61,328 nucleotides of DNA, from positions 1-61,328 of the IMG/VR virus record IMGVR_UViG_3300002161_000007; one strand, 5' to 3'. Under the pieces are notes generated by a model, which did not search any database, was not told the DNA's origin, and saw only the letters and a list, made by a program, of their open reading frames with translations. Positions 5,406 to 28,713 of this stretch are shown one piece after another. A program made the position numbers and the translations under genes. How positions within the stretch are numbered: the first letter of the stretch is position 1; every line of letters starts with the position of its first letter. Source of the DNA: a virus.

Positions 5406-6188
5406 ATGGTGGAAATCATGGGCAAACTTGCATGGGATTACATTGTTCCAGTAGTTCTTCCAAAAGACCTTAAAGGTATTGAGCCAGGAAAACTCCCTGC
5501 CAACCTTCTCAAAGCAGTTCCTGGTGGCGGAAAGATGCATTGGATCGCCGCATGCGCATGGACAGCAATGGTTGAAAAAGCCAAGGCTGAAGGCGTTGAA
5601 TTAAAACCGACTTCCAGCGGCGACACATACAGAGATTACGAAAGCCAAAAAAAGGGATTTCTTACTCGCTACACACTTGACAAAGTGGATGGAACCAGCA
5701 CCAAAACCTTTGAAGGTAAGACTTGGTATCTCAAGAAGGGTATGGCGATGTTGGCTACACCTGGTAAATCACAGCATAACCTCGGCTTGGCGGTTGACGT
5801 TCATTCAGCATCAGAGCCAAAGCGTCTCAACTGGCTTATTGCAAACGTTAAAGAGTTTGGTTTTTCATGGGAAGTTGTTCCAAGCGAACCATGGCACTTG
5901 CGTTATGTCTGCGGAGACAATATCCCTGCATCGGTTAAAGCATGGATGGACGCTAACGGCGTAGTTGCCCCAGTAGGTAATGCCCCAGCCGCCGCTCCTG
6001 CCGCAGGCGGAGACGACATCAAGAAACTACAAGAAGCGCTCAAGGCAAAAGGTTTCTACAATGGTGAAATTAACGGTCAAAAAGACTCAGCAACCGACGA
6101 GGCAATCAAGGCTTTTAAAATTGCCAATGGTCTAAAGCCTGACTTCTTCCCTGGTCCAAAAGTAAAAGAACTTTTAGGACTAAAATAA
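5406..6188 (+). CDS. Endolysin: M15 peptidase (VanY-like) with peptidoglycan-binding domain
   Basis: A 260-residue protein. The N-terminal two thirds is a zinc D-Ala-D-Ala carboxypeptidase/endopeptidase of the M15 family, with ligands H124 and D131 in SQHNLGLAVDV and E161/H164 in SEPWHLRY. An Ala/Pro linker near residues 188-200 leads to a PG_binding_1-type domain (IKKLQEALKAKGFYNGEING, then TDEAIKAFKIANGL). It cuts peptide bonds of the host wall at lysis. An ATG at 5418 is an equally possible start. No signal peptide is seen, so a holin is needed for export. Three small membrane proteins in the window are candidates. Confidence 0.85.
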   Translation: MVEIMGKLAWDYIVPVVLPKDLKGIEPGKLPANLLKAVPGGGKMHWIAACAWTAMVEKAKAEGVELKPTSSGDTYRDYESQKKGFLTRYTLDKVDGTSTKTFEGKTWYLKKGMAMLATPGKSQHNLGLAVDVHSASEPKRLNWLIANVKEFGFSWEVVPSEPWHLRYVCGDNIPASVKAWMDANGVVAPVGNAPAAAPAAGGDDIKKLQEALKAKGFYNGEINGQKDSATDEAIKAFKIANGLKPDFFPGPKVKELLGLK

Positions 6189-22789: not shown

Positions 22790-24367
22790 ATGGCATACGA
22801 ACGCCCAGGAGTCTACGTACGTGAGACTCCATTTACAAGCAACATCAGCCCACGCACCGCTACAACGGCTGCCGCATTTGTCGGTACCGCAGAGCGTGGT
22901 CCTGCTGTTCCAACCCTCATTACCTCGTGGAATGACTACAAGGCAAAGTTTGGTGAATTGGCACAAGGTTACGACCTTGGTTATGCTGTTTACCATTACT
23001 TTGCAAACGGTGGTCGTGACGCTTATGTTTCACGTGTAATTGACACCACCGCCGTTGCATCTACAGTTGCGTACACAGGTACAGTAACTGGTGCTTCTGG
23101 ATCATCAACTTTGTTTACTTTGCAAGCATCTTCAAAAGGTGCTTGGGGTGACGACGTTTCAGTTACTTTGAGTTTTGATACAAACACTTTGGTTGATGCA
23201 TCAAGCGCACCAAAAGTACAGGCATCAACGTTGTTCTCAATGATTGTTTCGCAAGAACGAAACGGTTCTACAATTGAAGTAGAGCGTTGGCAAGAACTTT
23301 CGTTTGATCCTTCAGCAAGCCGTTATTTCAAGCAAGTTCTTGAACTTTATTCGTCGTACGTAAATGTACAGGGAACCCCAGCAACAATTGGTACAAACAC
23401 CACTATTGCTGTTTCTGGTATTACCGCAGGTACATACTCAACAACACTTACATTGGCTAATGGTTCAGACGCTACTAACGCTTCGTCAGTAAGTGCTGAC
23501 ACTGAATGGGCTACCTCAGTATCAAATCTTGATGCAGTAAGTGGTCCTTTGTTGATTAACCTTGTTGGTCAGACATCAAGCACCCGTGTTAACCAAGCGT
23601 TGTCATATGCAGCAAACCGTGCTGACGCTTTTGTCATCATTGATTGCCCAATTGACGCTGCAACTAAGGCTGACGTGCAGACCGCAATCTCGTCATACAG
23701 CACCAGCAATGGTGGCTTTGGCGCTGTGTACTTCCCAGCATTGAAGATGTATGACCCATCAAAGAGTGGTCCAACCGCTATCCGCAACACCTACCCAGGT
23801 GGAGCAATTGCTGGAGCGTACGTACGTTCGGAGAACCTCCGTGGTGTTGCTAAAGCACCTGCTGGTTACTTCTTGGACTTGCAGAACGTATTCGGCTTGG
23901 TAGCAACTGTGTCAGATGCTGATCAAGGTACTTTGTATAACACTAACCATGTTAACTGCATCCGCACGATTGCTGGTGGTGGAACAATCATCAACGGTGC
24001 TCGCACCTTGGCTAAGAACCGTCCAGACAAGTACATCACGATCCGCCGTACCCTTTCGTACCTACGCACGGTTCTTGATGCACAAACTCAGTTTGCTGTT
24101 TTTGAACCTAACGACGAACGTTTGTGGGATCGCATCAAAGTCTCATTGTCCAGCACTCTTACTGATTTCTGGGCTAAGGGGAACTTGAAGGGTGCTAACT
24201 CAACAAGTGCTTTCTACATCATCTGTGACTCAACAAACAACACTCAGGCAAGTATTGAAGATGGATACGTAAATATTGAGGTTGGTGTCGCATTGCAGTA
24301 CCCAGCCGAGTTTGTCGTAATTAACCTCACACAGTGGGCTGGCAACGGCTCTGCTGGAAACCTCTAA
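22790..24367 (+). CDS. Contractile tail sheath protein
   Basis: A 525-residue protein beginning MAYERPGVYVRETPF, the hallmark N-terminus of phage tail sheaths. The segment AAFVGTAERGPAVPTLITSW and the Gly-rich beta segments fit domain I. The C-terminal part (VFEPNDERLWDRIKVSLSSTL, then GYVNIEVGVALQYPAEFVVI) is the conserved sheath domain that contacts the tube. This defines the phage as a contractile-tailed myovirus. A clear site (TTAGGAG) precedes the start. It pairs with the tube gene that follows. Confidence 0.95.
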   Translation: MAYERPGVYVRETPFTSNISPRTATTAAAFVGTAERGPAVPTLITSWNDYKAKFGELAQGYDLGYAVYHYFANGGRDAYVSRVIDTTAVASTVAYTGTVTGASGSSTLFTLQASSKGAWGDDVSVTLSFDTNTLVDASSAPKVQASTLFSMIVSQERNGSTIEVERWQELSFDPSASRYFKQVLELYSSYVNVQGTPATIGTNTTIAVSGITAGTYSTTLTLANGSDATNASSVSADTEWATSVSNLDAVSGPLLINLVGQTSSTRVNQALSYAANRADAFVIIDCPIDAATKADVQTAISSYSTSNGGFGAVYFPALKMYDPSKSGPTAIRNTYPGGAIAGAYVRSENLRGVAKAPAGYFLDLQNVFGLVATVSDADQGTLYNTNHVNCIRTIAGGGTIINGARTLAKNRPDKYITIRRTLSYLRTVLDAQTQFAVFEPNDERLWDRIKVSLSSTLTDFWAKGNLKGANSTSAFYIICDSTNNTQASIEDGYVNIEVGVALQYPAEFVVINLTQWAGNGSAGNL

Positions 24368-24387: not shown

Positions 24388-25041
24388 ATGGTAACAGCAA
24401 AAACAATGCGAACTGATCCGCTACGTAACTTTAAGTTCCGTGTGCAGATTATTCCTAAGTCATCCTCAGGTCCTATTGCTCAAAAGTTAAGCCAAGTTAG
24501 TGAACTTGGTTTTGCTCAGGTAAGCGGTATCTCCGTAACCAACGAAATCATCACCTATCGTGAAGGTGGAATGAACACCCACCCACACAAGATGGTGGCA
24601 CAGTCAGACTTTGCCCCTGTCTCATTTGCTCGTGGTGCCTTCAGTGGTCAAGATCAGTTGTTCCAGTGGCAGAAGTTCCTCCATGCTTGGTTGGGACAAG
24701 GCGTTGGTGGAGAACCTGGATTGTCAAATGGCGACTCAGAATACCGTTGCGACATTCTCGTAAAAGTATACGACCACCCACACACCGCAAGTGAAGTAGA
24801 TGCTCAGAGTGGAAACTCTTTGTTCTACCAGTATGACGGTGGACAACAGGGAACTTCTAACAAGCCAGTTGTACCTGGAAACGTTAAGTTTCAATTTAAA
24901 CTGTTTAATGCATGGCCTGGCGCTTATGCTTTGACCGACCTTAATGCTGGAGACAACGGTATCTTGATTCAATCAATGACCGTTCACCACGAAGGTTTCT
25001 ACATTGACTGGAACGGTACTCAAGACCTCGCAACCATGTAG
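24388..25041 (+). CDS. Tail tube protein (T4 gp19-like)
   Basis: A 217-residue protein with NFKFRVQII near the N-terminus, VSGISVTNEIITYREGGM, and PVSFARGAFSGQDQLFQWQK, which match the T4 gp19 family tube fold. The C-terminus (FKLFNAWPGAYALTDLNAGD, followed by SMTVHHEGFYID) matches the conserved end. It forms the rigid inner tube inside the sheath. It lies between sheath and tail-assembly chaperone. Confidence 0.93.
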   Translation: MVTAKTMRTDPLRNFKFRVQIIPKSSSGPIAQKLSQVSELGFAQVSGISVTNEIITYREGGMNTHPHKMVAQSDFAPVSFARGAFSGQDQLFQWQKFLHAWLGQGVGGEPGLSNGDSEYRCDILVKVYDHPHTASEVDAQSGNSLFYQYDGGQQGTSNKPVVPGNVKFQFKLFNAWPGAYALTDLNAGDNGILIQSMTVHHEGFYIDWNGTQDLATM

Positions 25042-25076: not shown

Positions 25077-25859
25077 ATGGATGATAAACAACAAGCCGAT
25101 GCGCTTAATGCCGCCCTTGCAGAAGAGATTCCTGAAGTTAAAGCACCACCCTCAACCTCTATAGAGTTGTTGCGTGGTGTCTTTAACTCGGAAACTAACT
25201 CATGGGAAAACACCGCATACGTTCGGGAATTAAACGGTTTTGACGAAGAAGCACTGGCTGCTTTAGATAATCAAAACATAGTTTATTCTGAGTACATGTC
25301 CGTACTGTTAAAGCGGGCTGTAGTTTCAGTCGGGTCCTTCTCTGTTAAAGATAACCCAACTGTCATTGATAATTTAATTATTGGTGATCGTGATTTGTTG
25401 TTTCTGAAGATCGTTGAAGCAACCTACGGTGTAAACCGTGAGTACCAAGTGACCTGTGGTTCATGCAAGGCTATGAACGACATTGTTGTTCCAATGAATG
25501 AGTTTGAGAACCGCAAGGTAGACCATGACCCTCAAACACCTTTAGAAGCAACCTTATCTGACGGCACTAAGATTCGGATGCGTCTTCCTAACGGTATGGA
25601 CAGCCAGATCGTTGCTAAAAAAGCAAAGTCAACCGCAGAACAAAATACGTTAATGCTGGCTCGTTGTGTTGAATCCCCAGCCATGTCTAACCCACAGCAA
25701 TGGGCTAAAGGACTTGGTATGAAGGACCGCAATGAGTTGGTTCGGGTACTAATGGACAGCCAACCTGGCCCTGAAGTAGGGGAGGTGAATGCCCAATGCG
25801 CTACGTGTGGCTCAGATCTGAACATCGTGCTTGATTGGGCATCCCTTTTATTCGGTTAA
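25077..25859 (+). CDS. Tail-assembly chaperone / T4 gp26-like protein, zero-frame part
   Basis: A 260-residue protein with two CxxC pairs, C127/C130 (CGSC) and C241/C244 (CATC), forming a likely zinc knuckle. Such Cys-pair proteins between tube and tape measure in contractile phages resemble T4 gp26-type or chaperone proteins. Residues 24-60 resemble the ELNGFDEEALA pattern. It ends DWASLLFG, abruptly, near a likely slippery CTTT. A downstream frame in +1 (25849-25998) carries the expected helical C-terminus. It would guide tape-measure and tube assembly. A short and an extended form are expected. Confidence 0.75.
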   Translation: MDDKQQADALNAALAEEIPEVKAPPSTSIELLRGVFNSETNSWENTAYVRELNGFDEEALAALDNQNIVYSEYMSVLLKRAVVSVGSFSVKDNPTVIDNLIIGDRDLLFLKIVEATYGVNREYQVTCGSCKAMNDIVVPMNEFENRKVDHDPQTPLEATLSDGTKIRMRLPNGMDSQIVAKKAKSTAEQNTLMLARCVESPAMSNPQQWAKGLGMKDRNELVRVLMDSQPGPEVGEVNAQCATCGSDLNIVLDWASLLFG

Positions 25860-25998
25860 TCTAACTCATATATACTGGGAATACGATTTGATAGCCACGG
25901 TTTACAAGGGCTTTACGCTCAACGACATACAAAATATGGCAGTACGCCAACGGGAGTACTGGTCCGCAATGGGTAAATGGCGTAACTCTGGAGACTGA
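25822..25998 (+). CDS. +1-frame extension of the tail-assembly chaperone
   Basis: The +1 frame is open from just after TGA 25819-25821 to TGA 25996-25998 and reads IYWEYDLIATVYKGFTLNDI then QNMAVRQREYWSAMGKWR. This is the form of the second half of tail-assembly chaperones (a helix followed by an M-x-x-RQREYW motif). No good start exists; TTG 25888 has only a weak site. Slippage at CTT-T (25845-25848), like the prfB CUU-U site, would join the frames as WASL-YSVNL. The listed span is the open region; the shift point itself is near 25845-25849. The frame could instead reflect a sequencing error. Confidence 0.6.
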   Translation, partial: TSCLIGHPFYSVNLTHIYWEYDLIATVYKGFTLNDIQNMAVRQREYWSAMGKWRNSGD

Positions 25999-26004
25999 TG
26001 AAAC

Positions 26005-28713
26005 ATGCCTGAAGAACGTGGCGTAGGTGATGGTGCTTTTGGCGGTAGTCCACGCACTGGAAACAATGTTTCCAATGTAAACGCTAACGTTGGCATGCGC
26101 CTTGATAGGTCTATTGCCCGTTTATGGATGACAACGTACGATGATCTTACTAGAAGAGTAAGAACGTTACGTAATGAAATTAGGCAACTAAACACCGAAG
26201 CAAGCCGTACCACTGGGGCAATCACTGGTTCAGGTGGCGGTGCGCCATCTTCAGCATCAACTACTACAGCCGCCGCAACTTCTAATGCTACTGCTACAAC
26301 TGCACGCCTAGTAGCAGGTACAGGTGGTGGTAGCGGTGGTGGGCTTGGTGGCGGACTCGGAAACCTTGGAGGAGGTGGAGGCGGTGGTGGTCTTAGTGGC
26401 GCCGCTATGGCTAGTGGGAACCCTTATGCAATGGCGGCGTCATTAGCGGCTAAATCAATCACTAAGAATTTGGACAAAGTCCAAGAACAACTGCAAAAGT
26501 TAGATGCCCGCATTGATCGTGGTTATGGTCCATCTTTAGAAGCAGACCGTCAGAGCGTGATGTTCCAACAAATGTATGGAATATCTCAACAACAGAATTA
26601 CAACCAATTTAGAAAGCCAATTAACAATTACCGACTTGGTCCTGGTGGTATTAACCAGATGCTTAGTCTTCAAGCAACTACTGGTCTTAACGCTCAAATA
26701 ATGGCTCCAGGTGTGGAAGCAATCCGCACCATGACTGGTTTTGGTTTAAGCACTGGCGATGTAAGCAACATGCTTTCTACGTTGGCTTCTCCAGAAGTAA
26801 ACAATCGTTTAACAATGACGTTGGGTACGGGTCTGTATGGACCTGGTGGTAAGCAACGCTCTCCAGTAGAAGTCATTCAGGCAATTGTTCGTGGTGCTGG
26901 TTTGACTAATGAAAACGTAGTTCGTGGTGCGCTACAACCTGGATCTATGACCCGTGCTCGTTTGAGCGCTATGGGTGTACCTCCAGAAATGCAAGATGTT
27001 GTTATTCAATACGCAATGCAAAACATTCAATACCAGAAAAAGACTGGCGGAAAGAAGGGGATGTACAACCCTGCTGACCGTAAGCAGTTGGGTGTCATGG
27101 GTATTGATAAGAACTTTGCTACTGAACGAGAAGTAACAGATGTTCGTAGAACACAACGTGATGAGTCGTTCTATAACAAACAAAAAGACAACTACGCATC
27201 TTTAGAGCGCAATACCCAGAAGATGGAAGACCTCACACGTAAGGTTGAGGAGTTAACTGCCGCCATTATTGGTGCTCGTATTAGTACCCGAAATAACCCG
27301 TTAACCAATGCTCTTGGTAAAGGTTTTGGTGCGGCTTTTGGTCCAATTAAAGATGCGTTAGGTTTAATTGGTGGAGATGCTTTAGAAGATGGAACAGGAT
27401 CTAAAGCAACTAATGGTGCTAGGGGTGGCAGAGGATCGGTAAATGTACCAAGTAGTTTAAATAAAACGTTTGGTGATCGTTTGCGTCAAATGATGTCAGA
27501 GCGCCCAAGCATCACAATTGGAACTGGTTTCCGTTCCTCAGCGGATCAGCGAACAATGTTCTTGTCCCGCTATTCAAAGACCTCTGAAAAGACAGGTGTG
27601 TACTGGGACGGTTCATACTGGAAGAAGCATGCTGGTGTTCCAGATGCGGCTCCCCCAGGAATGTCAATGCACGAACTTGGTTTGGCAGTTGACCTTAACT
27701 ATCCAACAAAGGCTGACGAAGAATGGTTCATGCGAAACGCTTCACGCTTTGGTTTGAAGACTATCTCAAGCATTGCTGAACCTTGGCACGTACAACCAGC
27801 AGAACTTGCAAATAGCAGAAGGCAATATGAAAAAGATGGAGCGCCGTGGGGACGTGGTCCTGCGGGAACTATTGCTTACCCATTTGACGCTACCTTTGAA
27901 GGAACTCCAGAAGATTCATATGGCGCTAGTGGTGGTATCACTGTTAATTCTCAAATGAGTATTGCTGATTCCATTACTTATTCTCGTGCTAGTAATGTGC
28001 TGAAAATTGGAGGAGGTGGCATTGGTGGTCGTGTAGTTACATTACGTACAGGAGCGCCAAAAACTGGGGAAAATAAAGGTAAAGGTTCTGCACCAGGGTT
28101 TAAACCAGGAACCATCCCTGCGGGATTCATGTACCGAACAACTCCAAACTACCAAGGTTGGGGTTATTTTGTTCCACAATCATTTACCGACGCTGATCTA
28201 GAAGCCTTACACCTACACGAGCAAAAGGATTGGACTAGAACTGTAAAGAATCGTGACGGCACGCTTATGGGCGGATTTGCCATGAATCAATATAACTGGA
28301 ACCGAGGTGGTGGTTTAAAGTATGCAAAGAATCCTGCACTAGCAACTCCTGAAGATCAAAAGAAAGTAGCCAAAGTTCTATTAGAACAACTTTGGGCGCA
28401 CGATGGCTTTGAATCTATTGTACGAGGCAACATAACATGGCCTGGTGCAGGAAAACTTAAATCAATTGATCTTCCTCCTGGAACCCCTATTAGTACTACA
28501 AAGGGTTCTTCAGGTGACCCTATTAGCGCACCTTCTCGTGGTGGCGGTGGTAACACTGTGATCGTAGAGGGCAATGGAGGTGGTATTACAATTGCTCCAA
28601 ACATTTACATTCAATCAGCAGGTAACAATGTGGCAGACGCAAACCGTGCCGCTCAAGAGATTGCAGATATCATTTCTCGTAAAGTTAAAACAACTGCTCT
28701 AAGGGGTATGTAA
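26005..28713 (+). CDS. Tape-measure protein with M15 peptidase and Rpf-like muralytic domains
   Basis: A 902-residue protein. It has an N-terminal coiled coil (residues 36-70), a Gly/Ala/Thr-rich stretch (about 75-150), and a long helical part to about 450. Residues 505-605 are an M15 zinc peptidase: H556 and D563 in MHELGLAVD, E592 and H595 in AEPWH. Residues 725-800 resemble resuscitation-promoting factors: possible catalytic E739 (LHEQKDW), MGGFAMNQYNWNRGGG, YAKNPALATPEDQKKVA. It sets tail length and helps the tube cross the wall during infection. Rpf domains suit an actinobacterial host. Confidence 0.8.
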   Translation: MPEERGVGDGAFGGSPRTGNNVSNVNANVGMRLDRSIARLWMTTYDDLTRRVRTLRNEIRQLNTEASRTTGAITGSGGGAPSSASTTTAAATSNATATTARLVAGTGGGSGGGLGGGLGNLGGGGGGGGLSGAAMASGNPYAMAASLAAKSITKNLDKVQEQLQKLDARIDRGYGPSLEADRQSVMFQQMYGISQQQNYNQFRKPINNYRLGPGGINQMLSLQATTGLNAQIMAPGVEAIRTMTGFGLSTGDVSNMLSTLASPEVNNRLTMTLGTGLYGPGGKQRSPVEVIQAIVRGAGLTNENVVRGALQPGSMTRARLSAMGVPPEMQDVVIQYAMQNIQYQKKTGGKKGMYNPADRKQLGVMGIDKNFATEREVTDVRRTQRDESFYNKQKDNYASLERNTQKMEDLTRKVEELTAAIIGARISTRNNPLTNALGKGFGAAFGPIKDALGLIGGDALEDGTGSKATNGARGGRGSVNVPSSLNKTFGDRLRQMMSERPSITIGTGFRSSADQRTMFLSRYSKTSEKTGVYWDGSYWKKHAGVPDAAPPGMSMHELGLAVDLNYPTKADEEWFMRNASRFGLKTISSIAEPWHVQPAELANSRRQYEKDGAPWGRGPAGTIAYPFDATFEGTPEDSYGASGGITVNSQMSIADSITYSRASNVLKIGGGGIGGRVVTLRTGAPKTGENKGKGSAPGFKPGTIPAGFMYRTTPNYQGWGYFVPQSFTDADLEALHLHEQKDWTRTVKNRDGTLMGGFAMNQYNWNRGGGLKYAKNPALATPEDQKKVAKVLLEQLWAHDGFESIVRGNITWPGAGKLKSIDLPPGTPISTTKGSSGDPISAPSRGGGGNTVIVEGNGGGITIAPNIYIQSAGNNVADANRAAQEIADIISRKVKTTALRGM

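Follow-up and report, generated by a model that had tools for sequence, protein, structure and literature searches.

Comparative evidence for a +1 programmed frameshift, probably aided by an upstream Shine-Dalgarno-like motif and stem, in a gp26-like tail chaperone gene of a freshwater phage

The gp26-like gene of a freshwater phage very probably yields two proteins, a 260-residue chaperone and a 306-residue form that would be produced by a +1 slip at a CUU codon, with an upstream RNA element probably stimulating the shift. The DNA analyzed here (the window, 61,328 nucleotides) is part of a 75-kb virus record. An initial annotation of this DNA had proposed a programmed +1 frameshift at a CTT-T site (25845-25848), located where the chaperone-like gene, which stops at 25859, overlaps a +1 frame that is open only from 25822, and all of these coordinates hold. 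Comparison with relatives reveals two-frame coding, selection on the extension, an invariant slip codon, a Shine-Dalgarno (SD)-like motif and a stem. We infer that frameshifting occurs, that its direction is set by tRNA slippage, that the SD-like motif and stem have a stimulatory role, and in what ratio the products are made. The features are listed in Table 1.

Table 1. Coordinates of the gp26-like gene, its neighbors and the proposed frameshift elements
Feature	Position	Strand	Remarks
Tail sheath gene	22790-24367	+	Upstream of the tube gene
Tail tube protein (gp19-like), upstream neighbor	24388-25041	+	PF06841, E 1e-20
gp26-like tail/hub assembly chaperone, short form, 260 aa	25077-25859	+	PF12322, E 3.7e-12; phrog_150 baseplate hub, E 1.5e-14
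SD-like motif GGGGAGGTGA within coding sequence	25779-25788	+	GAG GTG codons invariant in 47/47; GGTG[AG]A core in 85/85
5' arm of stem, ATGCCCAAT	25789-25797	+	Conserved 7-bp core 25791-25797, covaries with 25834-25840
3' arm of stem, ATTGGGCAT	25834-25842	+	Core 25834-25840; same evidence as 5' arm
Slip site CTT_T for +1 shift	25845-25848	+	Proposed re-pairing of peptidyl-tRNA-Leu from CUU to UUU
+1-frame extension, 49 aa	25849-25998	+	Homologous to the C-terminal part of T4 gp51 and to gp51-like ORFs
0-frame stop TAA	25857-25859	+	Three codons beyond the slip codon
Tape-measure protein, downstream neighbor	26005-28713	+	phrog_16823 tape measure, E 8e-15

The plus-strand gene order is sheath, tube, gp26-like gene and tape measure, and the PF06841 and phrog_16823 matches of the neighbors bear out that the gene sits between those for tube and tape measure. 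With its ATG at 25077, the chaperone-like ORF spans 260 codons and ends at the TAA. Its product carries two CxxC pairs and matches the PF12322 profile (T4_baseplate; T4 gp26/gp51) at 46.8 bits versus a curated cut-off of 24.5. An AF2 model of the short form has a pLDDT of 88.7, and Foldseek matches it to phage 'baseplate hub/gp26' models, among them the SP-15 hub subunit (E 3.6e-12) and gp26 of Aeromonas phage 25 (E 2.8e-6), both of which are themselves models; the structure search with the AF2 model found no solved structure that matches this fold. Profile searches matched PF12322 and hub families only and detected no sequence relation to lambda G, which is not decisive because reviews note low similarity across the tail-chaperone group. 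We infer that the gp26-like product functions as a chaperone. The neighboring tape-measure protein exhibits weak matches to PF06737 (transglycosylase-like) and PF02557 (VanY-like) in its C-terminal half.

Relatives were collected by IMG/VR searches with the gene product and with alignments as queries, spanning identities from 100% to about 40%. The close-relative set comprises 85 distinct IMG/VR sequences from the clade of the window, with a smaller set of 47, and a BRock-like set holds 14 sequences. Cultured Streptomyces phages (BRock, GiJojo, LuckySocke, Alone3 and pSt2308) were found at about 31% identity. All 85 window-clade relatives and all 14 BRock-like sequences carry a +1-frame extension that overlaps the gene at its 3' end. 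In the window, the +1 frame opens after a stop at 25819-25821, encodes the segments VYKGFTLNDI and MAVRQREYW that had been described as a conserved-looking tail, and ends with TGA at 25996-25998. Over the 33 codons that follow the 0-frame stop, 85/85 relatives keep the +1 frame free of stops, versus 18/85 for frame 0 and 0/85 for the -1 frame, and the mean dN/dS of the extension is 0.146 over the 85 relatives (pairs are not independent). Therefore, the two-frame layout is not a chance arrangement, and the extension, with a dN/dS of about 0.15 in these alignments, is evidently under purifying selection. The same +1 layout occurs in Bacillus phage SP-15, Listeria phage LIS04, Streptococcus phage GXN1, Microcystis phage Mel-JY01 and Flavobacterium phage immuto, as well as in LR756508 and a series of marine sequences (L198-L206, L214 and L215), and the +1 relation is kept in relatives down to about 30% identity. 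Annotations of the cultured relatives inspected (BRock, SP-15, GiJojo and others) do not include the long form, and a tblastn search of cultured phages with 32 extension residues returned nothing meaningful.

The slip codon is conserved to an unusual degree. CTT is invariant in 85/85 relatives, and the base that follows is T in 61 and C in 24. Its synonymous entropy is 0, versus 2.2-2.5 bits at seven other conserved leucine codons of the gene, where five or six codons are in use. In many relatives, a +1-frame stop just upstream leaves only about nine codons in which a shift could take place. All 14 BRock-like sequences carry TTT_C, with unchanged spacing to the conserved extension motif and to the stop, and an invariant YTT_Y codon occupies the same alignment column across relatives. 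The corresponding sites are TTT_CGT in GXN1, TTT_TTT_CAC in SP-15, TTT_TTT_AGT in LIS04, TTT_TTT_TGG in Mel-JY01, CTT_TGG in immuto, TTT_CTA in LR756508 and TTT_TGG in the marine sequences, and re-pairing on UUY is possible at every one of them. Thus, the +1 reading is strongly supported by comparative data, and a +1 slip at CTT_T, kept to about 30% identity with YTT_Y in a single column, is the best-supported version of what the initial annotation put forward. Part of the CTT_Y conservation may derive from dual coding (Leu in frame 0 and a Phe codon in the +1 frame). Two features count against the site: the 0-frame A-site codon, UUA or CUA, is not strikingly rare (16 and 8 per thousand), and the 0-frame stop lies three codons beyond the slip codon rather than in the A site. 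We claim no downstream stimulator because the MFE fold of 25770-25920 is no better than those of shuffled sequences.

An element spanning 25779-25842, which is absent from the initial annotation, lies just upstream of the slip site. Among the 47 sequences, only three codon columns lack synonymous variation: the slip CTT itself and the neighboring GAG GTG about 20 codons upstream, which belong to an SD-like motif whose GGAGGTGA occurs a single time on the plus strand of the window. The motif is followed by a stem of 7-9 bp whose 3' arm ends 2-4 nt before the CTT, with the core 3' arm at -11 to -5 relative to the first base of the P-site CTT. The SD-to-slip distance is 57 nt in the linear sequence, and with the stem looped out it becomes 3 nt (full 9-bp stem) or 7 nt (conserved core). 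Across 41 distinct arm combinations, the 7-bp core shows 95.8% pairing. None of 500 column shuffles and none of 5000 synonymous-codon shuffles reached this level, and pairing fell to 9-51% when one arm was shifted by 1-3 columns. Three stem pairs have changed on both sides (31 cells), namely -66/-17 (G-C, A-U, G-U), -65/-18 (C-G, U-A) and -61/-22 (A-U, G-C), the last by way of third codon positions (CAA/CAG with GAT/GAC). A tree built from the upstream portion of the gene was used to count how often positions in the two arms changed on the same branch; -67/-16 (6) and -61/-22 (4) rank first, and both are predicted base pairs, although -67/-16 is paired in only 54% of sequences. A scan of YTT_Y sites on both strands of the window, requiring a hairpin score >=15 and an SD within 8 nt 5' of the hairpin, returned only 25845/25846 among 2,386 sites. 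RNAalifold also proposes pairing between the SD-like motif and the slip region, an arrangement that is neither supported nor excluded because these pairs hardly vary.

Related elements exist outside the clade of the window. LR756508 carries GAGGAGGTGATG, a perfect 7-bp hairpin, AAC and then TTT_C, and its marine relatives carry GGGGAGGT[AG]GA, a 5-bp hairpin, six bases and then TTT_T. BRock-like sequences have GAGGT, in most cases a 5-bp hairpin, seven bases and then TTT_C; their hairpin is weaker and is broken in two of them (L194 and L195). A clear SD plus hairpin is limited to the window clade, LR756508 and its marine relatives. No convincing upstream element was found in the +1 lineages Mel-JY01, immuto, L214 and L215, and the hairpins of SP-15, LIS04, GXN1, Mel-JY01 and immuto show no excess over a small null of 36 sites. 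Given that several +1 lineages do without a clear element, it could be argued that frameshifting is real but that the SD-like motif and stem serve other ends, such as RNA processing or pausing for folding of the zinc-ribbon end. We regard this as rather unlikely, since the window clade and the distant LR756508 group agree in the order of SD, hairpin and adjoining slip site and are similar in the spacing. Our preferred reading is that the conserved upstream SD and stem probably stimulate the +1 slip.

It is reasonable to envision the following course of events. Standard decoding would give the 260-residue gp26-like chaperone, and most ribosomes would stop at its end. Some ribosomes, with CUU (25845-25847) in the P site, would move one base forward, the Leu tRNA would re-pair with UUU (UUC in some relatives), and reading onward in the +1 frame would produce the 306-residue form with its gp51-type C-terminal extension. 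As the mRNA exits the ribosome, the stem formed by 25789-25797 and 25834-25842 might refold against the E site, and such refolding behind the ribosome could favor a forward slip, much as the SD:anti-SD duplex does in release factor 2 (RF2) or as the mRNA-pulling 5' stem does in T4 gene 60. The looped-out stem would also bring the SD-like GGAGGTGA near the slip site, where the motif could anchor the 16S tail. By analogy with lambda gpG/gpGT, the short form might then coat the tape-measure protein while the rarer long form recruits tube subunits. Counting against this scheme, the 3' arm is partly within the mRNA channel of the ribosome when CUU is in the P site, and perhaps the stem forms only in part at that moment. 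A stable upstream hairpin next to the E site has been found to give about 60% of the +1 stimulation of an SD on CUUUGA with 70S ribosomes (PMC6321510), and a similar upstream hairpin is functional in yeast (PMC3639245). A review (PMC5009743) places the RF2 SD 3 nt from its CUU and describes a 5' stem of T4 gene 60 that pairs just outside the exit channel and is thought to pull the mRNA.

Several relationships to T4 also emerge. T4 gp26 and gp51, both given as hub assembly chaperones in PMC3004832, each match PF12322 over its full length and are paralogues on that basis, with gp51 bearing about 48 further residues. In T4 itself (L090, 5803-7229), genes 26 and 51 lie on opposite strands, and the C-terminal extension of gp51 resembles the +1 extension. 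Profile comparisons with hhalign relate the window and BRock extensions to the other +1 extensions (E 5e-7) and directly to the gp51-like set (E 9e-5); the other +1 extensions in turn match gp51-like ORFs and the T4 gp51 C-terminus (E 3e-7). Furthermore, the annotation of KVP40.0327, a small ORF after gp26 of KVP40, notes similarity to the last 40 residues of gp51. Only one PF12322 gene is present in BRock and in each of six near-full-length relatives (94-97 kb); a separate gp51-like gene is therefore absent from them. The 3' end of T4 gene 26 (L090, about 5800-5840) holds the split ribosome-binding site of gene 25, at a position corresponding to that of the slip element.

Other phages appear to express the extension differently. 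In L011, L212 and L213 it is a separate -1-frame ORF that starts from its own ATG, located at the stop or shortly after it; compared with the +1 relatives, this is a switch of expression strategy within the family. In cyanophages (P-SSM2-like L218-L297, and L095, L096, L097, L099 and L100), T_TTT_TTC occurs near the end of gp26 in 57/57 distinct loci, the -1 frame at the gp26-gp51 junction is open into a gp51-like ORF, and 35/38 distinct upstream contexts place an SD-like GGAGG/GAGGG at 10-11 nt from the P-site codon. This junction looks like an unannotated -1 frameshift, and re-initiation at a nearby ATG is possible there as well. Versions with an own start or in the -1 frame, which would have spoken against the +1 proposal had they been typical, were encountered only in distant lineages (LR756511, L212/L213 and the cyanophages).

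The sister lineages with their own ATG (L011, L212 and L213), together with the SD-hairpin-AUG arrangement that T4 uses at its gene 26-25 junction (PMC3014915), lend some substance to the idea that the window encodes a separate small protein. Under that explanation, re-initiation or internal initiation would occur near the 25857 stop, with the SD and hairpin as a split ribosome-binding site comparable to those of T4 genes 25 and 38. We consider this improbable. As the initial annotation suspected, the extension lacks a good start: the window clade has no conserved ATG, GTG or TTG in the +1 frame after the hairpin, TTG appears at a few sites and in some sequences only, and the sole common ATG, replaced by TTG in L071, comes 29 codons into the extension, well beyond the conserved YWEYD segment. 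The internal ATG of the window at 25789 meets the +1 stop at 25819. A -2 slip in the overlap, which the initial annotation had left as an alternative, would reach the same frame as a +1 slip, yet it is very improbable: the invariant YTT_Y permits good +1 re-pairing on UUY in almost all lineages, a conserved site for -2 re-pairing was not found, and a close upstream SD or hairpin favors +1 (PMC6321510 and PMC5009743). Polymerase slippage or a sequencing or assembly indel, to which the run of four T at the site might point, is scarcely credible, since CTTC in 24/85 relatives leaves T runs no longer than two, which excludes polymerase slippage on a T run, and the layout is identical in 85/85 relatives from independent assemblies and in cultured phages.

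A slip of +1 at CTT_T shares much with established systems. As in lambda gpG/gpGT, the gene lies between the tube and tape-measure genes, the slip is near its 3' end, and a short protein is accompanied by a predicted rarer, C-terminally extended form; a conserved out-of-frame extension overlapping the 3' end without its own start likewise fits the G/GT type, a kind of tail assembly chaperone frameshifting reportedly described by Xu, Hendrix and Duda in 2004. Whereas lambda-type shifts are usually -1 on a heptamer, the shift proposed here is +1 at YTT_Y, in a PF12322 protein, with an SD and hairpin upstream. The protein shares PF12322 and the gp51-type C-terminus with T4 gp26/gp51, but T4 has two paralogous genes on opposite strands rather than one gene in two frames. 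RF2 (prfB) has in common the CUU_U slip codon (CUU_U in 61/85 and CUU_C in 24/85 here) and an SD-like stimulator. However, the RF2 SD is 3 nt upstream in the linear sequence rather than 57 nt with a stem-loop between SD and slip, and RF2 has UGA in the A site instead of UUA/CUA with a stop three codons on; the core 3' arm lies roughly at the place of the RF2 SD:anti-SD duplex. T4 genes 25 and 38 also combine an SD with a hairpin that shortens the spacing, but for initiation rather than a +1 shift (PMC3014915), and the upstream stem of T4 gene 60 forms behind the ribosome as proposed here, but serves bypassing. Upstream refolding hairpins adjoining the E site are expected to promote +1 shifts, as here (PMC3639245, PMC6321510), but those are engineered constructs studied in yeast and in vitro, in contrast to a natural, covarying stem with an SD.

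The initial annotation held that a +1 shift would be distinctive. This stands for the T4-gp26 family and for the SD-plus-hairpin element but is tempered for the direction itself, because +1 tail-chaperone sites are already annotated: 350 forward sites in SEA-PHAGES tail-chaperone data (PMC10274946) and a +1 site in HSTV-2 (PMC5009743). Those sites are not shown to belong to the gp26 family, and the text consulted reports no SD-hairpin element for them. The site would also be a case from nature, documented by evolutionary comparison, in which an upstream RNA stem acts together with an SD on a +1 slip. To our knowledge, an upstream stem as a +1 stimulator has so far been known from engineered constructs.

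The comparisons suggest four routes to the same two products, namely a +1 slip, a -1 shift on T_TTT_TTC in cyanophages and others, an ORF with its own start, and the T4 duplication. A review (PMC5009743) describes G-T frameshifting as a conserved trait of long-tailed phages 'except T4', and we found no published link between T4 gp26/gp51 and tail-chaperone frameshifting among the open-access texts searched. Because gp51 of T4 is both paralogous to gp26 and extended at its C-terminus, T4 may have swapped a frameshift for a gene duplication, which may explain its exceptional status. We are evenly divided on the broadest proposal, in which a natural composite stimulator of the +1 slip, an internal SD set apart from the slip codon by a stem-loop that refolds, drives production of both chaperones throughout the gp26 family, with T4 gp26/gp51 as the duplicated version. 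Overall, these findings suggest that T4-type phages take part in the common tail-chaperone scheme, and that they do so by different routes: a +1 shift, a -1 shift in cyanophages, a coupled separate ORF or a gene duplication.
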